The notes beneath the pieces are model-generated. The model was not told the origin of the DNA. It searched no databases and worked only from the letters and a program-made list of their open reading frames with translations. From a bacterium (lineage in GTDB: Bacteria > ARS69), in the NCBI GenBank assembly GCA_025774805.1, contig JALGZR010000023.1:1-64000 (forward strand): a stretch of DNA of 64,000 nucleotides, given 5' to 3'. Of the stretch, positions 38,942 to 50,406 are shown in pieces; within the stretch, counting starts at the first letter, position 1; each line of letters opens with the position of its first letter. The position numbers were made by a program, and so were the translations under genes.

Positions 38942-39043
38942 GGTGGGCGATTTGCTCGAAGAGACAGAGCCCGCCTCTGGCATTTCGCAATGACGAAGCT
39001 GCGGGCGGTCCCCGCAATCGCGTGCCCCGCGCCAAGGGCATCT

Positions 39044-41437
39044 ATGAAGACCCCAGCCCGGATCTTCTGTGTCTTCCTACCGCTCACTCTCTTCTCGACC
39101 GTGACTGCTGCGCGAGAAGATCTTCCGACCGTCACCATCGGGGTCCTCTTGGACGGTCCGTTGGCGCGCCTTCAGGAGGTCCCGGAGACCATCGAGCGTG
39201 AGATCACGAACCTGCTTTCGAGCGACTTCTCGGTCCGGATCCCGGCGCGGGAGCGGATCGAAGCCGACTGGACCGTGGCCGGGGTGACGAGCGGACTGGA
39301 TCAGCTTCTCGCCGACCGCGAGGTGGACATGATCGTGGTTGTCGGATCTATCGGGACCCACGTCGCGACCCAGCGGGGAAGATTCGGCAAGCCGGTCGTC
39401 GCATTGCCCGTCTACCTGCCGCAGATCCAGGAGCTCGCCGCCCGGGAGGGAAGCGGAATCCGCAATCTTCACTTCCTCACGGTGACACAACGACCGGACA
39501 TCGGGGTGCTCCGGGAGATCACGCCGTGCAGACGGGTCGCCGTGTTCATCGAAGGAGCCCTGGCGCGAGCGATTCCGGGGATCATCGACCGTATGGAGGA
39601 GGCCGCGAAGGAGTACGAGCTCTCTCTCCAGCTCATCGAGGTCGACACCACTATCGAGCCCGCCCTCGAGGCTCTGGGTCCGGACGTGGAGGCCGTCTAC
39701 GTTCTCCCCCTGCACCGCATTTCTCCGGCCGACTTCGGGCGTCTGGTGAGTGAGCTCCAAGCGCGGCAACTCCCGAGCTTTTCGTCGGTCGGGCGTCCCG
39801 AGGTGGATCTCGGGATCCTGGCCGGCCTCAAACCTCCCGATTTTCTGCGGTGGGTCGCGCGCAGGACGGCGCTGAACACGCAGCGGATCCTACAGGGGAT
39901 CGATCCGCGTGAGATCCCCGTCGCGTTCTCGTCGCGGGAAGCGCTCTCGATCAATATGGCGACGGCCCGGGCGATTGAGGTCTATCCCAAGTGGAAAGTC
40001 CTCACCGAGGCGGAGCTCGTGGAAGAGGACGTCCGCCGGGTGGGGCGGAAGATCTCTCTGGAGGACGCGGTCCGCGAAGCGGTGGAGGTGAATCTCGAGC
40101 TTGCCGTGCGGGAGCGGGATTTGGCCGCCGGAGCGGAGGACGTTCGTCTCGCGACCGCGAATCTCCTGCCGCAAATCGATGTCTCCGCAAACGGCGTGAT
40201 CATCGATGAGGACCGAGCCGAGGCGAGCTTCGGCTCGGCGACCGAGAGGACCCTCACCGGGTCGGCGACGCTGACCCAGTTGCTTTACAGTGAGCCGGGA
40301 TGGGCGAACCGTACGATCCAGAAGTCACTGCAGGAGGCGCGGGAGCTGGATCGCGACGCGCTCCGGCTCGACATCGCGTTCGACGCGGCCGTTACCTACC
40401 TTGACATCTTGAGGGCGAAGACGTTCGAGAGGATCCAGAGGGAGAACCTCGATCTCACGCGGACGAATCTCGAGCTGGCCCGGGTCCGGGAGTCGATCGG
40501 GACCGCCACGCCGGGCGAGGTCTATCGCTGGGAGAACCAGATCGCGAATGCGCGGCAGGCGGTGATCGATGCCTCGGCCCAACGGAACCGGGCGGAGATC
40601 GAGCTGAACCGTCTTCTGCACCGGCCGCTCGAGGAGCCGTTTCGTACGACAGATGCGTATCTGGAAGATCCCGTGCTCATGACCAGTCAGCGCGCGCTGT
40701 TCCGGTACATGGACAATCCGTGGGGCTTTCGCGTCTTCCGTCGCTTCATGGCGAAGGAAGCGTTGGAGTCAGCGCCCGAGCTTCGAGCGCTCGACGCGGC
40801 GGTCGCGGCCCAAGAGCGGGCGCTCGCGTCGGCTTCGCGCCGCTTCTGGATTCCGACGCTCGGCCTGCAAGTGAACGTGACCGAGACGATCGAGAGAGAC
40901 GGCGCGGGCTCCGGGGAGTTCTCCGGCCTCGGGCTTCTCGATCTCCCGCGGGCCGACGACACGGACTGGTTCGTGGGGGTGAACCTCTCGTATCCGCTTT
41001 TCGAAGGGGGAGCGCGTTTCGCGGACAAGAAACAGGCGCAGGAGAACCTGGCCCGGATCGAGACCGAGCGCGAGGTAGTGGCGGAGCGCGTGGAGCAACG
41101 CGTACGGTCGGCGCTCCACGACATGGGAGCGTCGCTCGCGGGCATCGACCTCTCGAGTGACGCGGCCGAGGCGGCTCGCAAGAACTACGAGCTGGTGCTG
41201 GAGGCCTATCGTCGCGGGGCCATCTCGATCCTCGACCTACTGGATGCGCAGAACGTGGCGCTGGTTTCGGACGAAGCGGCCGCCAATGCCGTGTACGCTT
41301 TCCTGATCGATCTGATGAGCGTGCAGCGAGCTGCGGGTCGCCTGGACTTCTTCTGCTCCGTGGAAGAGCGGCAGGCGTTCTTCGAACGGCTGGAGTCGTT
41401 CTTCAGGGAAGCCGGGGATGCTCCCGCGGGCAGATGA
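39044..41437 (+). CDS. Fusion of a periplasmic-binding-protein domain and a TolC-family outer-membrane channel
   Basis: A 797-residue exported protein (signal peptide ARIFCVFLPLTLFSTVTA). Residues about 25-325 form an ABC_sub_bind/PBP1-like domain: LPTVTIGVLLDGPLARLQE, VDMIVVVGSIGTHVATQRG, VRLP-like VVALPVYLPQIQELAA, EAVYVLPLHRISPADFGRLV, and the family-typical end INMATARAIEVYPKWKVL. Residues about 340-790 form an OEP/TolC domain with two repeats of long helices (KISLEDAVREAVEVNLELAV, ARVRESIGTATPGEVYRWEN, VGVNLSYPLFEGGARFADKK, VLEAYRRGAISILDLLDAQN). Joining a ligand-sensing domain to an export channel is unusual. ATG 39044 is chosen because it begins the signal peptide. It probably works with an unlinked inner-membrane pump. 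Confidence 0.75.
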   Translation: MKTPARIFCVFLPLTLFSTVTAAREDLPTVTIGVLLDGPLARLQEVPETIEREITNLLSSDFSVRIPARERIEADWTVAGVTSGLDQLLADREVDMIVVVGSIGTHVATQRGRFGKPVVALPVYLPQIQELAAREGSGIRNLHFLTVTQRPDIGVLREITPCRRVAVFIEGALARAIPGIIDRMEEAAKEYELSLQLIEVDTTIEPALEALGPDVEAVYVLPLHRISPADFGRLVSELQARQLPSFSSVGRPEVDLGILAGLKPPDFLRWVARRTALNTQRILQGIDPREIPVAFSSREALSINMATARAIEVYPKWKVLTEAELVEEDVRRVGRKISLEDAVREAVEVNLELAVRERDLAAGAEDVRLATANLLPQIDVSANGVIIDEDRAEASFGSATERTLTGSATLTQLLYSEPGWANRTIQKSLQEARELDRDALRLDIAFDAAVTYLDILRAKTFERIQRENLDLTRTNLELARVRESIGTATPGEVYRWENQIANARQAVIDASAQRNRAEIELNRLLHRPLEEPFRTTDAYLEDPVLMTSQRALFRYMDNPWGFRVFRRFMAKEALESAPELRALDAAVAAQERALASASRRFWIPTLGLQVNVTETIERDGAGSGEFSGLGLLDLPRADDTDWFVGVNLSYPLFEGGARFADKKQAQENLARIETEREVVAERVEQRVRSALHDMGASLAGIDLSSDAAEAARKNYELVLEAYRRGAISILDLLDAQNVALVSDEAAANAVYAFLIDLMSVQRAAGRLDFFCSVEERQAFFERLESFFREAGDAPAGR

Positions 41438-41504: not shown

Positions 41505-41594
41505 CGAGGGCAGAATCTGTTGATTCCGTGCAAGAATCCGCCCGTCCTCGATTTCGGGGATGGCGGCCACGCGTTGGACTGAGGAGAGCACGTT

Positions 41595-43226
41595 CTGCAT
41601 CCTACCCCACGATCGTACAGGATCGAGACCGAGGCGGCGGCGCAAGAGGTTCTGGCCCGTTTCCGGGCACGGTTCCGCACTCGGGACGAGGTCGACAGTC
41701 CCTCCGCCATCACGTACTACGACACGTTCGACTGGCGTCTCTACCGAAGGGGCGGTGTCCTCGCTCTCCAGCCCTCCGGAAACCGGTGGGATCTTTCGTG
41801 GGAATCGAGGGAGGGTCTGGTGCGCCACCGCCTCCGGGTTCCCGGGATTCCGGCCTTTTCCCGGGACCTGCCGGAGGGTCCGCTGCGAGAGGCCCTGACT
41901 CCGATGATCGAGATGCGCCGTCTGCTCCCCGTCGCGAGTGTCAGGCGGCAGGCGCGGAGTCTGGCCGTGCTCGATACGAACGGAAAGATCGTCACCCGAC
42001 TCCGCGTGGACTGCCCCGCGGCCTCGCCGCCCGGTCGGCGGCGGCGGCGGCAAGCCATGTCTCCCCGCCTCACGATCATTCCGATCCGAGGATACGCACG
42101 GGCTTTTCGGGAGGCGCGCCGTTTCGCGGCGCGCGAGCTCGAGCTTCCGGAGTGCGATTCGCGGGAGATCGTGCTCGCCCTGGCGGCCCTCGGCCAGGTG
42201 GCGGGTCGATACTCGTCCAAACTCCGAATCGAGCTCGACGCGGGCATGCGCGCCGATTCGGCTGCAAAGACGATCCTCCGGGCGCTTCATGCGACGATCG
42301 TGGACAATGAGGACGGAACCCGCGCGAACCTGGATTCGGAGTTCCTCCACGACTTTCGCGTGGCCGTCCGCCGAACGCGCTCCTGTCTGAGTCAGTTGAA
42401 GAGCCTCTTCCGGCCGAGGGGTTTGGGTAAGTTTCCAAAGGAGTTCGCCTGGCTCGCCCGTCTCACGGGCCCGACACGGGATCTCGACGTCTATCTGCTG
42501 AAGATGGAAGCCTATCGCAAGAGCCTTCCGAAGGCCGTACAGCGCGAGTTGGAGCCCCTCGAGGAGTTCCTCCGCGAACGGCAGGCGGTGGAGCACGAAC
42601 GGCTCGCCACCGCGCTGGTATCGAAGCGGTATCGCGCGTTGATCCGGAACTGGAAGCGATTCATAGATACGGAGGTGGATGAGACGGAAGCCCCCGTCGA
42701 CGCGAAGCGTCCGATCCTCGAAGTGGCCTCGGAGCGGATCGGCAAGTGCCATCGGCGAGTGATGAAACGGGGGAGGGCGATCGGGGCCGACGTGCCGGCC
42801 GAGAAGTTGCATCGGCTGCGGATCGAGTGCAAGAAACTCCGGTACCTCCTCGAGTTCTTCGCAAGCCTCTACGATCCTGCCACTCTCGGGGCACTCGTTC
42901 GAGAGCTCAAGCTCCTCCAGGACAACCTCGGTGACTTCAACGATCTCGAGGTGCAACAGGGCGCACTGCTGGACTTTGCGCACCAGATGCAGGAAGAGGG
43001 AAGCGCGACGGTCGAGATGTTGATGGCGATGGGACGTCTGCGAGAGCAATTGGAAGAGCGACAGGACGACGAACGGAAACGCTTCGCGAAGCGGTTTGCC
43101 CGGTTCTCGAGTCGGAAGAACCTGGCCCGCGTTCTGGAGTTGCTGCCCGCGACCCCGGGTTCGCAAGTGGGCGCGGAGGCGGAGGATCCACCGGCTCCTC
43201 GAAGCGGGGAGGGCCGGGAATCATGA
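41595..43226 (+). CDS. CYTH-CHAD protein (polyphosphate-associated), CTG start
   Basis: A 543-residue protein. Residues about 1-140 look like a CYTH-type domain (SYRIETEAAAQEVLARF, then AITYYDTFDWRLYRRGGVLA and VRHRLRVPGIPAF), although the ExExK motif is degenerate. The rest is a CHAD domain with conserved histidines and basic residues: LHDFRVAVRRTRSCLSQLKS, LTGPTRDLDVYLLKMEAYRK, LHRLRIECKKLRYLLEFFAS and LQDNLGDFNDLEVQQ. CHAD domains bind polyphosphate granules. No ATG, GTG or TTG lies in frame upstream of GTG 41820, which would cut the CYTH domain. CTG 41595 has GAGGAG 8 nt upstream. Its stop overlaps the parA start. Confidence 0.75.
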   Translation: MHPTPRSYRIETEAAAQEVLARFRARFRTRDEVDSPSAITYYDTFDWRLYRRGGVLALQPSGNRWDLSWESREGLVRHRLRVPGIPAFSRDLPEGPLREALTPMIEMRRLLPVASVRRQARSLAVLDTNGKIVTRLRVDCPAASPPGRRRRRQAMSPRLTIIPIRGYARAFREARRFAARELELPECDSREIVLALAALGQVAGRYSSKLRIELDAGMRADSAAKTILRALHATIVDNEDGTRANLDSEFLHDFRVAVRRTRSCLSQLKSLFRPRGLGKFPKEFAWLARLTGPTRDLDVYLLKMEAYRKSLPKAVQRELEPLEEFLRERQAVEHERLATALVSKRYRALIRNWKRFIDTEVDETEAPVDAKRPILEVASERIGKCHRRVMKRGRAIGADVPAEKLHRLRIECKKLRYLLEFFASLYDPATLGALVRELKLLQDNLGDFNDLEVQQGALLDFAHQMQEEGSATVEMLMAMGRLREQLEERQDDERKRFAKRFARFSSRKNLARVLELLPATPGSQVGAEAEDPPAPRSGEGRES

Positions 43227-43996
43227 GAGTCCTCGCCACCTACAACATCAAGGGCGGGGTAGGGAAGACCGCCACCGCGGTCAATCTGGCGTATCTCTCG
43301 GCCAGGGAGGGGGCGCGCACCCTCGTGTGGGACCTCGATCCGCAGGGTGCCGCCACGTTCTACTTTCGCGTGAAGCCGAAGATGAAGGGCGGGTGGAAGC
43401 GTCTCGTTCGAGGCAGGAGCGACATCCGACGATCGATTCGCGGAACGGATTTCGGCGCCCTCGATCTCGTCCCGTCCGATTTTTCCTCGCGAAACTTGGA
43501 TCTCTATCTCGACCGTTCGAAAAGGCCGTCGAAGCGGCTGGCGCGCCTCCTCAAACCGCTGGGGAAAGCCTACGATTTCGTCATTCTCGATTGCCCGCCG
43601 AGCATCTCGCTCGTCTCCGAGAGCATCTTCGGGGCGGCGGACGTCCTGCTGGTTCCGACGTTGCCGACGACCCTCTCGATCCGCGCCCACGAGCAGCTGC
43701 GAAACCACCTGTCGGACATGGGGCGCAACCGTCCGGCGCTTTTTCCTTTTCTCTGTCTCGTGGATCTTCGAAGATCTCTCCACCGGGAGATCTGCAAGCG
43801 GTTCCGAGATGAGGATCGCAACGTCCTCGAAGCCTGGATCCCTTACTCGAGCACGGTGGAGCGGATGGGAGTCCATCGTGCCCCCCTCGGGACGTTCGCC
43901 GGAAAATCGCCTCCGGCTCTCGCGTACGAGCGCTTGTGGAACGAGATCCGAGCGAGGCTCTCCACCGGCGAAGCTGCGGCGGGGCGGGAATCTTGA
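43223..43996 (+). CDS. ParA/MinD-type ATPase
   Basis: A 257-residue ParA-family ATPase. The deviant Walker A IKGGVGKTATAVNLAYLS is at residues 9-26, the switch I region VWDLDPQGAATFYF follows, and Walker B VILDCPPSISLVSESIFGAA is at about 116-135. There is no N-terminal DNA-binding extension, so it resembles cargo-positioning 'orphan' ParAs (McdA-like) as much as plasmid ParA. No parB is nearby. Its ATG overlaps the CHAD gene stop (ATGA) and it is followed by ppk1, so the likely cargo is polyphosphate or a CHAD-coated granule. That role is inference. Confidence 0.8.
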   Translation: MRVLATYNIKGGVGKTATAVNLAYLSAREGARTLVWDLDPQGAATFYFRVKPKMKGGWKRLVRGRSDIRRSIRGTDFGALDLVPSDFSSRNLDLYLDRSKRPSKRLARLLKPLGKAYDFVILDCPPSISLVSESIFGAADVLLVPTLPTTLSIRAHEQLRNHLSDMGRNRPALFPFLCLVDLRRSLHREICKRFRDEDRNVLEAWIPYSSTVERMGVHRAPLGTFAGKSPPALAYERLWNEIRARLSTGEAAAGRES

Positions 43997-44082
43997 GGCG
44001 AACCGTCGTGTCTCAAGGCGGCCCTCCATTCCTCCCGTCTTTTCCGGCGTCCCGGAAGCACTCCTTGAACGTCCGTCCCGGG

Positions 44083-44105
44083 TATAATGGGACGGCGCGG
44101 GGACG
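44083..44105. promoter_or_regulatory. ppk1 promoter with an inverted repeat around the -10
   Basis: A consensus TATAAT (44093-44098) lies between CCGTCCC (44083-44089) and GGGACGG (44099-44105), perfect 7-bp arms. No good -35 is at the standard distance. The arrangement suggests an independent, regulated promoter for ppk1. Confidence 0.45.
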
Positions 44106-44141
44106 AAGGGGCCGGCGTCCGTCGGGCCGGAGGATCGGATC

Positions 44142-46346
44142 ATGACCGCCCGGAAGACCCCTCACGTCAAACTCAGCTCGCCGGAGATCTACTTCAATCG
44201 CGAGCTCAGTTGGTTGAGCTTCGCCCGTCGGGTGCTGGCTCAGGCCGAACGCGGAGACCTCCCGCTCCTGGAGCGCGTCAAGTTCGTCGGTATCGTCGGT
44301 ATGCTCCACGACGAGTTCTTCATGAAGCGGATGAGCGGCCTGAAACGGCAGGTGGAACAGGGCTCGAAGAAGCCCTCTCTCGACGGCCGACTTCCCAAGG
44401 GCGAGTTCGCCGCCTGCCGGAAAGAGATGATCGCCCAGGTGCGGACACTTTCCGGGATTGTCAGCCGGGAGATCCGCCCCGCGCTCGCCCGAGAGAATCT
44501 GCCGGTTCTGGACCACGATGAGCTGGAGGGAAAGCAGAGGAAGAAGCTCCGGAAATACTTTCGCGAGACGGTTATGCCCGGCCTGACTCCGCTGGCCGTC
44601 GATTCGGAACACCCGTTCCCGTTCGTGGGCAATCTCTCACTGAGTCTCGCTGTCGTGTTCCGCAAGCGGCCACGCCGGCTCAAGCGCATTGTCCTGATGG
44701 AAGTGCCGTCGAACCAGCCTCGATGGATCCCGGTGCCGGACGGCGTCGGATTTACCCCCCTGGAGCAAGTAATCGCGGCCAACTTGGATCTGCTCTACCG
44801 GGCGCCGGCACCGGAGGGCGTTCACCTCTTCCGGGTGACCCGCGGGGCGGAGGGAGACGCGTCCGACGTCCACGATCTTCCGCTGGAGGAGCCGGGGAGC
44901 ATCGTCCAGCAGGTGAGCAGCGAGCTCAAGGCGAGGCGCTTTGCCGGAGTGGTGCGTCTCCAGATCGATGCCTCGATGCCCAAGTCGCTGAGGCGGTGGC
45001 TCCAGAAACAGCTCCGGGTGAACGCCAGCGACATCTACGTGTCGGAGCCTTTCCAGGGCATTCGGGACCTGGCCCAGATTCCCGCCGCTGACCGGGACGA
45101 CCTTCGGCTGGCGCCCCATGTTCCCGTGGTCCACCCGCGATTGAGGGAGCTCGATGCGGAGAGTCCGGAAGCCTTCTTTCGGGAGATTTCGCGAGGAGAC
45201 ATCCTCCTCCATCACCCCTACCACTGCTTCGACACGTCGGTTCTGAGGTTCATCGAATCCGCCGCGCGGGATCCGGCGGTCACCGCCATCAAGCTGACGA
45301 TTTACCGGACGAGCCCGGGCGTGGATTCCCCCATCCTCGGGGCGCTGATCGACGCAGCGCGCCGGGGCAAGCAGGTTGCCGTACTGGTCGAGATCACGGC
45401 CCGGTTCGACGAGGCGCCCAACATCGCCTGGGGTCGGATGCTCGAGAACGAGGGAGTTCACGTGGCCTACGGAGTCGAGAGCCTCAAGACCCACGTCAAG
45501 CTCGCCCTGGTGGTGCGCAAGGAAGGGGAAGGCGTGCGCCAGTACGCGCACTTGGGAACCGGGAACTATCATCCGGGCACGGCGCGGGTGTATGAGGATC
45601 TCGGTATGCTGACGAGCGAACCGAGCGTCTGCGCCGAAGTGGGAATGGTCTTCAATGCTCTGACCGGCGCGGTTCCCTATGAAGGTGCCGGCAAGCTCAT
45701 CGTGGCGCCCATGTCGATGCGGCGACACTTCACCCGGTTGATCCGCCGCGAGGCGGCTCACGGGAAGAGGGGCCGTCCCTGCGGCATCGACGCCAAGATG
45801 AACCAGCTCCAGGACTCCCAGATCATCCGTGAGCTCTACCGGGCGGGGAGAGCCGGCGTCCCGATCTCTCTGAACATCCGTGGTCTCTGTTGCCTTCGGC
45901 CCGGCGTGCCCGGACTGTCGGAGAACATCCGGGTATTCAGCGTCGTGGGGCGGTTCCTCGAGCACAGCCGCGTCTTCCGATTCGTCAACGGGGGGGAACC
46001 GGAGTACTTCATCGGCTCGGCGGACTGGATGAAGAGAAACCTCAGCCGCCGGGTCGAGACGGTCCTCCGTGTCCTCAGCGAGGAGTTGAAGCGAGAGCTC
46101 GACGCCTTCTTCGAAGTCTATGAACGCGACAACTCGAGCGCCTGGGACTGCGGCCCCGACGGGATCTACACATGCCGTTCTCCCGGAAGTGGCGAGGAGC
46201 CGCGAGCCGCGCAACAGAACTTCATAGACCGTCTGCGCGAGTCCGCGGCGCGAGAGGGGCTTCTCGAATCGATGCCGTTCGACGTCGGTGAGGTTCCGCC
46301 ATCTTCTACGGAACGAAGTGAAATACCGGCCCCGAAGGACCCCTGA
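44142..46346 (+). CDS. ppk1: Polyphosphate kinase 1
   Basis: A 734-residue PPK1 (reversible transfer of the ATP gamma-phosphate onto polyphosphate). The N domain opens SPEIYFNRELSWLSFARRVL. The C1/C2 catalytic domains contain LTIYRTSPGVDSPILGALID, LVEITARFDEAPNIAWGRML, the autophosphorylated histidine in SLKTHVKLALVVRKEG (His 451), YAHLGTGNYHPGTARVYEDL, and the second conserved histidine EHSRVFRF (His 608). The length is slightly above the usual 690 because of a C-terminal tail. ATG 44142 follows GGAGG. Genetic linkage to CHAD and ParA is notable. Confidence 0.92.
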   Translation: MTARKTPHVKLSSPEIYFNRELSWLSFARRVLAQAERGDLPLLERVKFVGIVGMLHDEFFMKRMSGLKRQVEQGSKKPSLDGRLPKGEFAACRKEMIAQVRTLSGIVSREIRPALARENLPVLDHDELEGKQRKKLRKYFRETVMPGLTPLAVDSEHPFPFVGNLSLSLAVVFRKRPRRLKRIVLMEVPSNQPRWIPVPDGVGFTPLEQVIAANLDLLYRAPAPEGVHLFRVTRGAEGDASDVHDLPLEEPGSIVQQVSSELKARRFAGVVRLQIDASMPKSLRRWLQKQLRVNASDIYVSEPFQGIRDLAQIPAADRDDLRLAPHVPVVHPRLRELDAESPEAFFREISRGDILLHHPYHCFDTSVLRFIESAARDPAVTAIKLTIYRTSPGVDSPILGALIDAARRGKQVAVLVEITARFDEAPNIAWGRMLENEGVHVAYGVESLKTHVKLALVVRKEGEGVRQYAHLGTGNYHPGTARVYEDLGMLTSEPSVCAEVGMVFNALTGAVPYEGAGKLIVAPMSMRRHFTRLIRREAAHGKRGRPCGIDAKMNQLQDSQIIRELYRAGRAGVPISLNIRGLCCLRPGVPGLSENIRVFSVVGRFLEHSRVFRFVNGGEPEYFIGSADWMKRNLSRRVETVLRVLSEELKRELDAFFEVYERDNSSAWDCGPDGIYTCRSPGSGEEPRAAQQNFIDRLRESAAREGLLESMPFDVGEVPPSSTERSEIPAPKDP

Positions 46347-46668
46347 ATCCGGTTGCGGTGGGAATTGTCACATTCGCCCTGCGAAGCGGCGGAGGCGGCC
46401 CACGAGCCGCGACCGATCGCCGCCGACACCCTGACCGATCGGTCGGTCGCGCTGCAAGTCGATGCCCCGACCGAAGGGCGGGTGCGGAAGTCCATCGAAG
46501 CCGAGCTGCGCGGGAGGGGTGGGGAGTGGCCCGTGCCGTCCCGGGGTGTTAACTTCCCACAATGACCACGACCGGGGAAACCACGTCGGCGTCGGGAACG
46601 GCGCTCGCCGGGCACCGGTGCGGTTTCCCGTCTTCTTCGGATCCTCACCGTTTTCGTTGGAGGGTTGC
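46347..46668 (+). other. Intergenic region upstream of the TonB2 operon
   Basis: 322 bp. The perfect 12-bp palindrome GACCGATCGGTC (46433-46444) and an upstream half-copy GACCGATCG (46411-46419) look like regulator sites. The region ends with GGAGGG for the DUF3450 gene. No gene supported. Confidence 0.4.
46433..46444. promoter_or_regulatory. 12-bp palindrome, possible operator
   Basis: GACCGATCGGTC, self-complementary, with a related GACCGATCG 22 nt upstream and a GGTCGC extension. It could control the TonB2-type operon 225 nt downstream. Confidence 0.3.
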
Positions 46669-47466
46669 ATGACGAGGCACCCGCGGATCGCTCGGGGGCC
46701 AGGGCTGGGGGCGGCGATCGCCTTCGCGATGGGCGCGGCGATCTCCCCGGCAGGAGACCTCGATGCGGTCCTGAGCTCCGGCACGGAGAAGATCGAGCTG
46801 GCCCAGGCATCCCAGGCGCGGATCGACGAGATGGTCGAGGAGACCCGGGGACTGGAGAGCGAGTACACCCGGCTCATGAAAGAGATCGACGGGCTCGAGG
46901 TCTACAACGACTACATGGAGCGGCAGATCGCGGACCAGATCGCGGAGCTCGCGGAGCTCCGGCGTTCCATCGACGAGGTCAGCAACGTCGAGCGTCAGAT
47001 CACGCCTCTGATGCTCCGCATGCTCGAGGGGCTGGAGCGCTTCGTCGAGCTGGACGTCCCGTTCTTGAAGGAGGAGCGGCTCCGACGCGTCGCGAATCTG
47101 GAGGCCCTGATGGAGAAGGCGGACGTCTCCGCGGCCGAGAAGTTCCGCCGTCTGTTGGAGGCCTTCCAGATCGAGGTCGATTTCGGACGGACGATCGAGG
47201 CTTACAAGGACACGGTGCCCCTCGCGGGCGCGACCCTCGAGGTCAACGTCCTTCGTGTCGGGCGGGTGGGGTTGTACTTCCAGACGAACGACGCGAGCGC
47301 GACGGGCTCGTGGGATGGGGAGGCCGGAGAGTGGGTGCTTCTGACCGACGGCCGGTCCCGCAATCAGGTTCGTCAGGGACTGCGGATCGCACGGAAGCAG
47401 GTGGCGCCCGACCTCCTGCTGCTGCCGGTCCGCGCCCCGGAGCCGGCGGGGAAGGAATCCTCGTGA
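46669..47466 (+). CDS. DUF3450 periplasmic protein of the TonB2 system
   Basis: A 265-residue exported protein. A signal peptide (GLGAAIAFAMGAAISPA) precedes a long coiled coil (QARIDEMVEETRGLESEYTR and LEVYNDYMERQIADQIAELA), then ITPLMLRMLEGLERFVELDV, typical of DUF3450. The C-terminal part has the conserved VGRVGLYFQTNDASATGSWD. In Vibrio and relatives DUF3450 genes begin the TonB2 cluster; the protein is thought to assist the energy-transducing complex. ATG 46669 follows GGAGGG. Overlaps the next gene by 4 nt. Confidence 0.8.
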   Translation: MTRHPRIARGPGLGAAIAFAMGAAISPAGDLDAVLSSGTEKIELAQASQARIDEMVEETRGLESEYTRLMKEIDGLEVYNDYMERQIADQIAELAELRRSIDEVSNVERQITPLMLRMLEGLERFVELDVPFLKEERLRRVANLEALMEKADVSAAEKFRRLLEAFQIEVDFGRTIEAYKDTVPLAGATLEVNVLRVGRVGLYFQTNDASATGSWDGEAGEWVLLTDGRSRNQVRQGLRIARKQVAPDLLLLPVRAPEPAGKESS

Positions 47467-48833
47467 GCGCCCGCACTCCGCGGCGGCTGGTCGCCGTCCT
47501 CGCCGCCGGCTGGCTGATCCCGGGCCCGACCGCGGGGCAAGAGGCCAAGACTCTCGACGAGCTGTTGCGGATGGTCGAGCAGGGCCGGGTCCGGGAAGAA
47601 CAGGAGCACCGTGAGCGCGAATCGAGATTTCGCGAGGAGCGCGATCAGCAGGAACGACTCCTGATCGAGGCGCGGGAGGCCCGAGCTGCCCAGGAGCGCC
47701 TCAGCGAGCGGCACGAGAACACGTACGACGAGAACGAGCTGAGGATCGTCGATGTCACCGAGCAGCTGACCCGTCGCCTGGGCTCGCTGCGCGAGCTCTT
47801 CGGCGTCTTGCAGCAGGTGGCGGGGGACACCCAGGGCATCCTGGAGAGCTCGGTCACCACCGCGCAGTTCCCGGGACGAGGGGAGTTCCTGATCGAGCTG
47901 ACCCGAAAGACGAGCTCGGCTTCCACGCTGCCCTCCATCGAGGAGATCGAGCGTCTCTGGTTCCTGGTGCAGCAGGAGATGACCGAGACCGGAAAGGTCG
48001 TTCGGTTCCGCGCGACCGTGATCACGGTGGACGGCCGTGAGGTGGAGCAGGAGGTCGCGCGCGTCGGAGGCTTCAACATCGTCTCCTCGGGGAAGTACCT
48101 GCAGTACACGCCGGAGACCGGGAATCTCTCCGAGCTCGGCCGGCAGCCCAAGCCCCGCTTCACCGGAACGACGCGTGAACTGCTGGAAGCGCGGGAAGGA
48201 ACAGTGACCGTCGGGATCGATCCGACGCGGGGACAGATTCTCGCGGCGTACCTGGAGAGGCCCGGCCTCCGCGAGCGTGTCGACCAGGGTGGGGTCGTCG
48301 GGTACATCATCATCGCTCTCGGCGTGTTGGGTCTCCTGATCGCCCTGGAGCGACTGGTCATGCTCGGGCGCGCGAGCGCGAAGGTCAGCGCGCAGCTCAG
48401 GACCGACGAGCCGCGGGAGGACAACCCGCTGGGTCGCGTCCTCCAGGTGGCACGGGAACACGACAAGGCCGACGTGGAGACCCTGGAGCTGAAGCTCGGG
48501 GAGGCGGTTTTCCGGGAGACCCCGAAGCTGACCCGCGCGCTCCTGTTCCTCAAGATCATCAGCGTCGTCGCGCCGTTGCTCGGTCTCCTGGGCACCGTGA
48601 CCGGGATGATCGTGACGTTTCAGGCGATCACGCTGTTCGGAACCGGCGATCCGAAGCTGATGGCGGGTGGGATCTCCCAGGCTCTCGTGACGACGGTTCT
48701 CGGTCTCACGGTGGCGATCCCGATGGTGCTGCTGCACACGCTGGTGAGCGGACGCAGCCGGCGCATACTGCACGTACTGCAGGAGCAGAGCGCCGGGATC
48801 GTAGCCGAACGCTCGGAACAGGCGATGACCTGA
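47463..48833 (+). CDS. TtpC-like MotA/TolQ/ExbB proton-channel protein
   Basis: A 456-residue protein with a periplasmic N-terminal coiled coil after a signal sequence (REEQEHRERESRFREERDQQ and similar, residues 30-90) and a C-terminal ExbB/TolQ channel domain. The latter has one span at GYIIIALGVLGLLIALERL and two more with the family motif VVAPLLGLLGTVTGMIVTFQ. This large ExbB paralogue with an extra periplasmic domain matches TtpC, the added partner of ExbB2-ExbD2-TonB2. GTG 47463 overlaps the DUF3450 stop. It harnesses proton-motive force for TonB. Confidence 0.85.
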   Translation: MSARTPRRLVAVLAAGWLIPGPTAGQEAKTLDELLRMVEQGRVREEQEHRERESRFREERDQQERLLIEAREARAAQERLSERHENTYDENELRIVDVTEQLTRRLGSLRELFGVLQQVAGDTQGILESSVTTAQFPGRGEFLIELTRKTSSASTLPSIEEIERLWFLVQQEMTETGKVVRFRATVITVDGREVEQEVARVGGFNIVSSGKYLQYTPETGNLSELGRQPKPRFTGTTRELLEAREGTVTVGIDPTRGQILAAYLERPGLRERVDQGGVVGYIIIALGVLGLLIALERLVMLGRASAKVSAQLRTDEPREDNPLGRVLQVAREHDKADVETLELKLGEAVFRETPKLTRALLFLKIISVVAPLLGLLGTVTGMIVTFQAITLFGTGDPKLMAGGISQALVTTVLGLTVAIPMVLLHTLVSGRSRRILHVLQEQSAGIVAERSEQAMT

Positions 48834-48840
48834 GGGCGCC

Positions 48841-49368
48841 ATGCAGATTCTCTTCGACGGTTACGTCGCCATCCGAGACTTCATGGAGCTGGGCGGCCCC
48901 GTGCTGAACGTCATTGCGGGAACGATCCTCTTGATGTGGATCCTCATCATCGAGAGGATCCTCTACTTCCGTACCGAGCACGGGACGAGAATGTCCGGGA
49001 CGCTGGACGCCTGGGAGGCTCGGACGGAGCGTCGCTCCTGGCACGCTCATCAAATCCGGGAAGCGCTTATCTCCCGCGTCAAAGTGGCGGCGACCGGACC
49101 GATTCCCCTCATCAGGTCTCTGGTCGCGCTCTGCCCCCTGTTGGGTCTCCTGGGCACGGTGACCGGAATGATCGAAGTCTTCGACGTGCTCGCCGTCTCG
49201 GGCGCGGCGAACGCCCGCTCCATGGCGGCCGGCGTCTCCCGCGCCACCGTTCCGACCATGGCCGGAATGGTCGGAGCGCTCTCCGGAGTCTTCGCCGCGA
49301 CGCTGCTGGCGCGCGCGGTGAGTCGAGAGGTGGAGCGCCTGGACGAATCCCTCACGATGGACCACTAG
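48841..49368 (+). CDS. exbB: ExbB2-type proton-channel protein
   Basis: A 175-residue ExbB/TolQ family inner-membrane protein, 7 nt after the TtpC-like gene. Three spans: NVIAGTILLMWILIIERILY, then LIRSLVALCPLLGLLGTVTG (signature) and PTMAGMVGALSGVFAATLLA. The short length and direct start in the first span fit ExbB2 rather than the longer ExbB1. It forms the stator with ExbD. Confidence 0.88.
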   Translation: MQILFDGYVAIRDFMELGGPVLNVIAGTILLMWILIIERILYFRTEHGTRMSGTLDAWEARTERRSWHAHQIREALISRVKVAATGPIPLIRSLVALCPLLGLLGTVTGMIEVFDVLAVSGAANARSMAAGVSRATVPTMAGMVGALSGVFAATLLARAVSREVERLDESLTMDH

Positions 49369-49379
49369 AGGACGACGCC

Positions 49380-49796
49380 ATGAGAAACCGATTCACTGCC
49401 CAGCGCCAAGACGAAGACGAGCAGGAGATCAACATCACTCCGATGTTGGACGTCGTTTTCATCATGTTGATCTTCTTCGTCGTCACCGCCTCGTTCGTCA
49501 AGGAGGCGGGGATCGACGTGAACAAGCCGGAGGCCGTGACCGCGCAGGCGAAGGAGAAGGCGAACATCCTGATCGCGATCGATGCCGCCGGCGGAATCTG
49601 GATCGATCGGCGCAAGGTAGATCCCCGGGCCGTGCGCGCGAACATCGAGCGTCTCCACGCGGAGAACCCGCAGGGAACCATCGTGATCCAGGCGGACCGG
49701 GAGTCCAAGACAAAGGTCCTCGTGGACGTCATGGACTCGGCCCGCCTGGCGGGAGTCTACGACGTCGCCATCGCCGCGCAGCCGGAAGGCTCGTAG
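49380..49796 (+). CDS. exbD: ExbD2-type protein
   Basis: A 138-residue ExbD/TolR protein: a short cytosolic N-terminus, one span with the proton-carrying Asp (INITPMLDVVFIMLIFFVVT), and a periplasmic ExbD domain (ILIAIDAAGGIWIDRRKVDP, IVIQADRESKTKVLVDVMDS). ATG 49380 lies 11 nt after exbB; TGA and the TonB ATG are 4 nt apart downstream. Confidence 0.9.
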   Translation: MRNRFTAQRQDEDEQEINITPMLDVVFIMLIFFVVTASFVKEAGIDVNKPEAVTAQAKEKANILIAIDAAGGIWIDRRKVDPRAVRANIERLHAENPQGTIVIQADRESKTKVLVDVMDSARLAGVYDVAIAAQPEGS

Positions 49797-49800
49797 AGAG

Positions 49801-50406
49801 ATGATCGTGCGGCACGCGATCGCCGTCGTTCTTGGGACGCTCGTGACCCTCGGGGTCCTCTTCGTGATGCAGACGCTCATCGCGACCGCCCGGCAGGAGC
49901 TGGACGAGTCGGGAACGCGGCACTTCGTCGATTTCGTTCGAGTCGAGCGGGAGGAGACGGTGCAGCCCAAGGACCGCCGACCGGAGAAGCCGCCGAAGGC
50001 CGAGGCTCCGCCTCCCCAGACGATTCAGCCCCGGACGGATTCGGTGGAACCGAGGGGGAGCTCGATCCAAATCGCTCCCGTGGCGATGGAGACCGAGGTG
50101 TCGATCGGAGGCCTGGGGCTGGAGGCCGGGGACGGAGACTACCTGCCGATCGTGAAGATCGCTCCCGTGTATCCGTGGAAGGCGCAGGCGCAGGGCATCG
50201 AGGGTTATTGCGTCGTGGAGTACACCGTGTCGGCGAACGGCACGGTGAAGGACGTCTTTGTCGTCGAAGCCGAGCCGGAAGGAGTGTTCGAGCGAACCTC
50301 CATCGATGCCGCGCTGAAGTTCAAGTACAAACCCCGCGTGGTGAACGGCGAGCCGATCGAGGTGAGGGGAGTGCGCAACCTGTTCCGATACACGCTCGAG
50401 GGATGA
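49801..50406 (+). CDS. tonB: TonB2-type energy transducer
   Basis: A 201-residue TonB-family protein. One N-terminal span (IAVVLGTLVTLGVLFVMQTL), a short Pro/Lys/Glu-rich linker (RRPEKPPKAEAPPPQ) and a C-terminal TonB domain starting PVYPWKAQAQGIEGYCVVEY, with VSANGTVKDVFVVEAEPEGV and a final RNLFRYTLEG. The linker is short, as in TonB2. It transmits energy to outer-membrane receptors, none of which is encoded in this window. It overlaps the TPR gene by 4 nt. Confidence 0.88.
   Translation: MIVRHAIAVVLGTLVTLGVLFVMQTLIATARQELDESGTRHFVDFVRVEREETVQPKDRRPEKPPKAEAPPPQTIQPRTDSVEPRGSSIQIAPVAMETEVSIGGLGLEAGDGDYLPIVKIAPVYPWKAQAQGIEGYCVVEYTVSANGTVKDVFVVEAEPEGVFERTSIDAALKFKYKPRVVNGEPIEVRGVRNLFRYTLEG

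Follow-up and report, generated by a model that had tools for sequence, protein, structure and literature searches.

Among the systems in which a ParA-type ATPase positions a cellular cargo, the McdA-McdB pair of carboxysomes (PMC6328274, PMC10241942) is a close counterpart of the locus considered here: its ATPase carries a deviant Walker A motif and a catalytic aspartate, has no ParB, and is encoded beside the gene of a cargo-surface protein. Polyphosphate is not mentioned in a survey of the cargos of the ParA/MinD family (PMC10241942), and what governs the spacing and inheritance of polyphosphate granules is not settled. The granules are located in the nucleoid region, with the ATP dependence of their placement still open (PMC9239181, PMC13052382); a 2025 review calls that dependence unknown and has as its sole entry for polyphosphate granules AlgP (PMC13052382), the Pseudomonas aeruginosa protein that spaces them on the nucleoid as a histone H1-like tether and works with no ATPase, in a model that has neither ParA nor CHAD (PMC9239181). 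CHAD proteins are located on the granules, and their overexpression shifts granules to the poles in Ralstonia (PMC6537752, citing Tumlirsch and Jendrossek 2017); CHAD genes also co-occur with polyphosphate enzymes (PMC6537752). In Acidithiobacillus, a conserved folD-ppk-parA-CHAD cluster was described in 2024, its ParA being called a plasmid partition protein (PMC10892726). Here we consider a locus uniting CHAD, ParA and PPK1 genes on contig JALGZR010000023.1 (positions 1 to 64,000, hereafter the window) of a bacterium of the GTDB lineage ARS69, known from a 5.1 Mb assembly (GCA_025774805.1) that resembles a metagenome-assembled genome (MAG; 284 contigs, 5% contamination). We are inclined to think that it is a polyphosphate-granule module, in which a ParA/McdA-like ratchet would position the granules with the CHAD protein as adaptor.

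All three genes lie on the same strand where the original prediction had placed them, and Pfam and NCBIfam assign CHAD, AAA_31/ParA and PPK1 unambiguously:

41595 to 43226, + strand: gene of a TTM (CYTH-fold)-CHAD protein, about 543 amino acids from a probable CTG start; Pfam CHAD at 6.9e-59; proposed polyphosphate-granule adaptor
41582 to 41597, + strand: Shine-Dalgarno-like AGGAG and CTG start of the CHAD gene, from the sequence itself; the N-terminus aligns with homologues
43223 to 43996, + strand: gene of a CHAD-associated ParA subfamily ATPase, 257 amino acids, isoelectric point (pI) about 10.4; AAA_31 at 4.2e-33
43223 to 43226, + strand: 4-nt overlap of CHAD stop and ParA start, both within ATGA (translational coupling)
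44142 to 46346, + strand: gene of PPK1, 734 amino acids; TIGR03705 at 2.9e-214 (713 bits), NF003921 at 8e-246, four PPK1 Pfam domains

The predicted overlap is thus borne out by the letters themselves, and so is the claim of a ParA without ParB: none lies beside the CHAD-linked ParA, and the sole ParB of the genome adjoins another, ordinary ParA on contig C30. Conservation of the CHAD-ParA adjacency, on which the original prediction had staked itself beforehand, is clearly confirmed and, at times together with ppk1, extends across many phyla. When public genomes were scanned with a CHAD profile, a ParA of the same subfamily stood immediately downstream in 63 of the best 80 loci, which span Gammaproteobacteria (many methanotrophs, including Methylotuvimicrobium buryatense 5G), Nitrosomonas, Nitrotoga and a Rhodospirillales MAG, and beyond these Thermodesulfobacteriota, SAR324, Acidobacteriota, Calditrichota, KSB1, Planctomycetota, Gemmatimonadetes, Chloroflexota, Poribacteria and Schekmanbacteria. 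Since that set was selected by CHAD, a second search was made by ParA, giving 79 members in four phyla or classes, with 26 testable loci of generic ParAs as control. CHAD was adjacent in 14/14 members from the KSB1 phylum, 30/43 from Gammaproteobacteria, 9/11 from Acidobacteriota and 9/11 from Thermodesulfobacteriota, hence in 62 of 79 against 0 of 26 generic ParAs, and we reject chance adjacency on these counts; three centre genomes in this set were reached through CHAD, and without them the count is 59 of 76.

Among 115 distinct subfamily members, the gene immediately preceding ParA on its strand is CHAD in 102. This order and strand recur without exception in the 128 locus records that contain the pair (some of them overlapping), with a median gap of 27 nt between the ends of the CHAD and ParA domains. 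The pair occurs in more than 10 bacterial phyla, among polyphosphate genes; CHAD-ParA fusion proteins were looked for and none was found. Some subfamily members reside on plasmids or chromids, as in Paracoccus isolates, whose large plasmids carry CHAD-ParA-CYTH-NUDIX and where plasmid p296221 of Paracoccus aestuarii has an identical 4-nt CHAD/ParA overlap. Sequence distances among the CHAD proteins track those among the ParAs (Mantel r 0.71; permutation maximum 0.22), a pattern that joint inheritance of the two genes would produce.

By its sequences, the CHAD-linked ParA is a discrete, monophyletic subfamily. A search of 60 genomes with the window ParA gave matches to ordinary ParA/Soj proteins at E values around 1e-24 (about 30% identity), the exception being one ParA at 1.8e-71 that also lies behind a CHAD gene; in the phylum of the genome with this exception, KSB1, 14 of 82 genomes carry the subfamily at E values up to 1.6e-46, with no match listed from there to the cut at 1e-35. 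A tree of 115 subfamily members and 28 generic ParAs is split into these two sets by a single branch (Shimodaira-Hasegawa-like approximate likelihood ratio test, SH-aLRT, 100), the subfamily forming a long-branch clade and the genome's own Soj grouping with the generic proteins. The most identical relative of the window ParA comes from an Acidobacteriota MAG (63% identity). The deviant Walker A motif KGGVGKT is present, and K10, K15, T16, D37, D39, Q41 and D123 are invariant in 102/102 members, which supports an intact ATPase. The arginine aligned with that of the ParA DxR motif, which in B. subtilis Soj is the DNA-binding R189, is retained in 95/100. The subfamily is strongly basic, with a median pI of 9.5 vs 5.4 for generic ParAs and conserved basic stretches at residues 48-67 (median net charge +7) and 97-108 (+4); no conserved C-terminal amphipathic helix of the MinD kind was seen in the alignment by eye. 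The structure model is of moderate confidence (predicted local distance difference test, pLDDT, 74.8; low at 42-67) and finds its best folds in Soj/ParA, including ParA-ATP, then in McdA (6nop/6non), with BcsQ of cellulose synthase also among the families and folds matched. The ATPase fold and residues are thus shared with ParABS (Soj/ParB), from which the CHAD-linked ParA differs by its separate clade and by the lack of an adjoining ParB.

The C-terminal domain of the CHAD protein, in a model of mean pLDDT 84.6, has as closest PDB match the CHAD-polyphosphate complex of Chlorobium tepidum (6qva; template modelling score, TM, 0.93; root mean square deviation 2.0), with a profile match to 6qv7/6qva at E 3.4e-102. 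Mutations at H253, R256, R260, R296, R418 and Y419 of CtCHAD weaken polyphosphate binding (PMC6537752); the window equivalents (H252, R255, R259, R295, R416, Y417) are each identical in 99/99 family members, and the more peripheral residues of the basic patch are mostly, not always, K or R. The conserved residues thus support the predicted role of the CHAD protein as a polyphosphate binder. The 'CYTH-CHAD' label fared less evenly: the N-terminal half is predicted to fold as a TTM tunnel (Foldseek matches to 5a65, 7ns8 and 3tvl, E 8e-5 to 1e-4), but Pfam does not detect a CYTH half and the ExExK catalytic motif is missing from 96 of 99 members, and by inspection from the window protein too, being present in three. 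An active CYTH triphosphatase is therefore unlikely, and the N-terminal TTM domain is a probable pseudoenzyme. Compared with the phosins and other CHAD proteins known from granules (CtCHAD, PptA and others), the structural match and all six contact residues are kept, whereas the nearly obligatory pairing with ParA and the TTM domain without ExExK set this family apart; no account of a phosin partnered by a ParA came to light.

The surroundings of the pair link it to polyphosphate independently. A PPK1 gene is found no more than 5 kb away from 24 of 102 pairs (13 of 45 when each flank spans at least 2.5 kb), on either side of the pair and in either orientation; with one or two ppk1 genes per 3-5 Mb genome, we estimate chance proximity at about 1% or less. 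Families recurring across 55 loci are SixA-like histidine phosphatases, PPK1, CYTH, Ppx/GppA, PPK2, PstS-like binding proteins and NUDIX, ParA being the sole recurrent member without a phosphate-related family name. Three lower-scoring ParA members (L165, L168, L187) adjoin a divergent stand-alone CHAD (Pfam CHAD at 4e-27 to 8e-32), and in one locus (L181, 7542-10380) a subfamily ParA follows ppk1 at a distance of 13 nt. This locus has no CHAD in its vicinity, and the sole CHAD match of its genome is a broken fragment with internal stops. Given the conserved adjacency to CHAD, the polyphosphate-rich neighbourhoods, the invariant CHAD contact and ParA catalytic residues, and the separate parAB, a functional link between this ParA and polyphosphate is near certain.

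As to what the link consists of, the best mechanism we can infer by analogy is a ParA/McdA-like ratchet that positions the granules and has the CHAD protein for its adaptor. PPK1 would make the polymer, and the CHAD protein would coat the granule through its polyphosphate-binding pore; ParA, as an ATP dimer, would bind the nucleoid through its basic surface, capture CHAD-coated granules, and be released where these stimulate hydrolysis, so that granules would follow ParA gradients and become spaced, or be divided between the daughter cells, in the manner of ParA/McdA cargos. The McdA folds matched by the window ParA fit this picture; unlike in the carboxysome system, the cargo here would be polyphosphate granules, the ATPase belongs to another sequence subfamily, and the partner is a folded TTM-CHAD protein in place of a McdB-type one with a disordered basic N-terminus. 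More tentatively, and with somewhat less conviction, we would venture that CHAD-ParA is an ancient, widespread and dedicated segregation machine whose track is the nucleoid, perhaps also the polymer of the granule, itself a polyanion; bacteria would thereby actively pass on a membraneless phosphate store.

Other roles for the ParA have to be set against this. It might act as an ATP-driven switch or scaffold of polyphosphate metabolism, assembling or regulating CHAD, PPK or phosphatases at the granule much as a BcsQ-like protein; the match to BcsQ, the metabolic neighbours of the pair (SixA-like, CYTH, Ppx, PPK2, NUDIX) and the ParA that adjoins ppk1 alone speak for such a role, which nevertheless seems unlikely to us, since the constant partner is CHAD (102/115) and not an enzyme, the loss of ExExK in 96/99 leaves little enzymatic activity to be expected of the TTM domain, and the strong basicity of the ParA fits a polyanion matrix. 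That same basicity, in median pI and in the two conserved stretches, would suit a ParA that itself binds polyphosphate as a DNA-like polyanion and acts on granule size, chromatin contact or dissolution, with CHAD as co-factor; this we hold to be distinctly improbable, as CHAD already provides polyphosphate binding and the retained DxR arginine leaves DNA as the simplest matrix. An ordinary plasmid or chromosome partition ATPase standing beside polyphosphate genes by accident, the reading given for Acidithiobacillus (PMC10892726), would accord with the generic ParA fold and with the members on plasmids or chromids, but deserves hardly any credence: the genome has a separate parA-parB pair, and the subfamily forms a single clade whose link with CHAD spans phyla, generic ParAs being CHAD-adjacent in none of 26 loci. 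We therefore reject a partition role.

Several observations weigh against granule positioning through a CHAD adaptor, chief among them the N-terminus of the CHAD protein. In the model of this protein, order sets in at about residue 6 (mean pLDDT 83-96 for residues 1-30) and the basic disordered N-terminus typical of ParA partners (PMC10241942) is not seen, so that contact with ParA would lie elsewhere, in the TTM domain or the C-tail. Ralstonia and E. coli strains with CHAD genes deleted showed no clear phenotype (PMC6537752). Adjacent CHAD is missing in 17 of the 79 members of the ParA-query set, and of 13 checked Gammaproteobacteria without it, 5 carry no CHAD anywhere in the genome; other partners are thus possible for some of the ParA subfamily. 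The module was also not found in four genomes of the same family, two of them less than 85% complete, which makes the pair patchy in the window's own family; together with the Acidobacteriota origin of the closest ParA, this suggests that the source lineage may have acquired it. CHAD is present in 8 of 13 Gammaproteobacteria whose ParA has no adjacent CHAD vs 6 of 19 without the ParA, a weakly raised co-occurrence that we do not count as support. On balance, the interpretation put forward in the original prediction is partly supported.

Its statement that no system of this composition is established holds within the open-access literature, in which no functional study of the CHAD-ParA pair was found (a paper outside it is possible) and only the Acidithiobacillus paper proved relevant among those linking CHAD, polyphosphate and ParA; the gene order had, however, already been reported there (PMC10892726). 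That report has the same three genes together but concerns one genus, with no survey of the ParA beyond it and no idea of positioning. If granule positioning is correct, polyphosphate would be a new cargo class for the ParA/MinD family, CHAD proteins, whose physiological role is undefined, would gain one, and there would be an explanation for a ParA that annotations in many phyla call simply 'AAA family ATPase' or plasmid partition protein. Since the pair recurs among polyphosphate genes in more than ten phyla, active placement or segregation of phosphate-storage granules may take place in many bacteria. The pair is present in cultured species such as Methylotuvimicrobium buryatense 5G (L131) and Paracoccus aestuarii DSM 19484 (L227).

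Within the locus, the frame of the CHAD gene has no ATG, GTG or TTG before 41820, and the CTG at 41595, preceded by TGAGGAGAGCACGTT, is its likely start codon, because AGGAG stands 8 nt ahead and the N-termini of homologues match; standard gene callers would start at the GTG at 41820, cutting the TTM domain by 75 codons. The ppk1 start lies 145 nt past the parA stop, and a scan for promoters and terminators between the genes recognised none in this gap and is uninformative. The genome holds one CHAD gene and two PPK1 genes, the second full-length PPK1 lying apart from the CHAD-ParA locus (G000:C86:42826-44865). The flanks appear unrelated by Pfam. Upstream, a TolC/OEP protein (38990-41437) matches ABC_sub_bind (8e-5) with its N-terminal part and so joins, unusually, an outer-membrane efflux domain to a substrate-binding-like one; downstream, DUF3450, MotA/TolQ, ExbB, ExbD and TonB genes (46665-50406) make up a TonB energising cluster unrelated to CHAD-ParA.

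Elsewhere in the subfamily, several Methylococcaceae methanotrophs have CHAD and ParA at separate loci (L102, L111-L113, L134, L136; L169, L171-L177), so that the operon was split and both genes kept. The neighbours of three CHAD-less ParAs of Gammaproteobacteria (L182, L185, L190) are alike: all three have an outer-membrane protein similar to fatty-acid transporters, and two of them also a NadA-like protein. This may be a second context of the subfamily. On the conjugative plasmid pMAQU02 of Marinobacter nauticus VT8, about 3.6 kb separate phbB, a gene with a polyhydroxybutyrate synthesis annotation, from a CHAD-less member (L228:6001-6747) that has possibly turned to another granule type.

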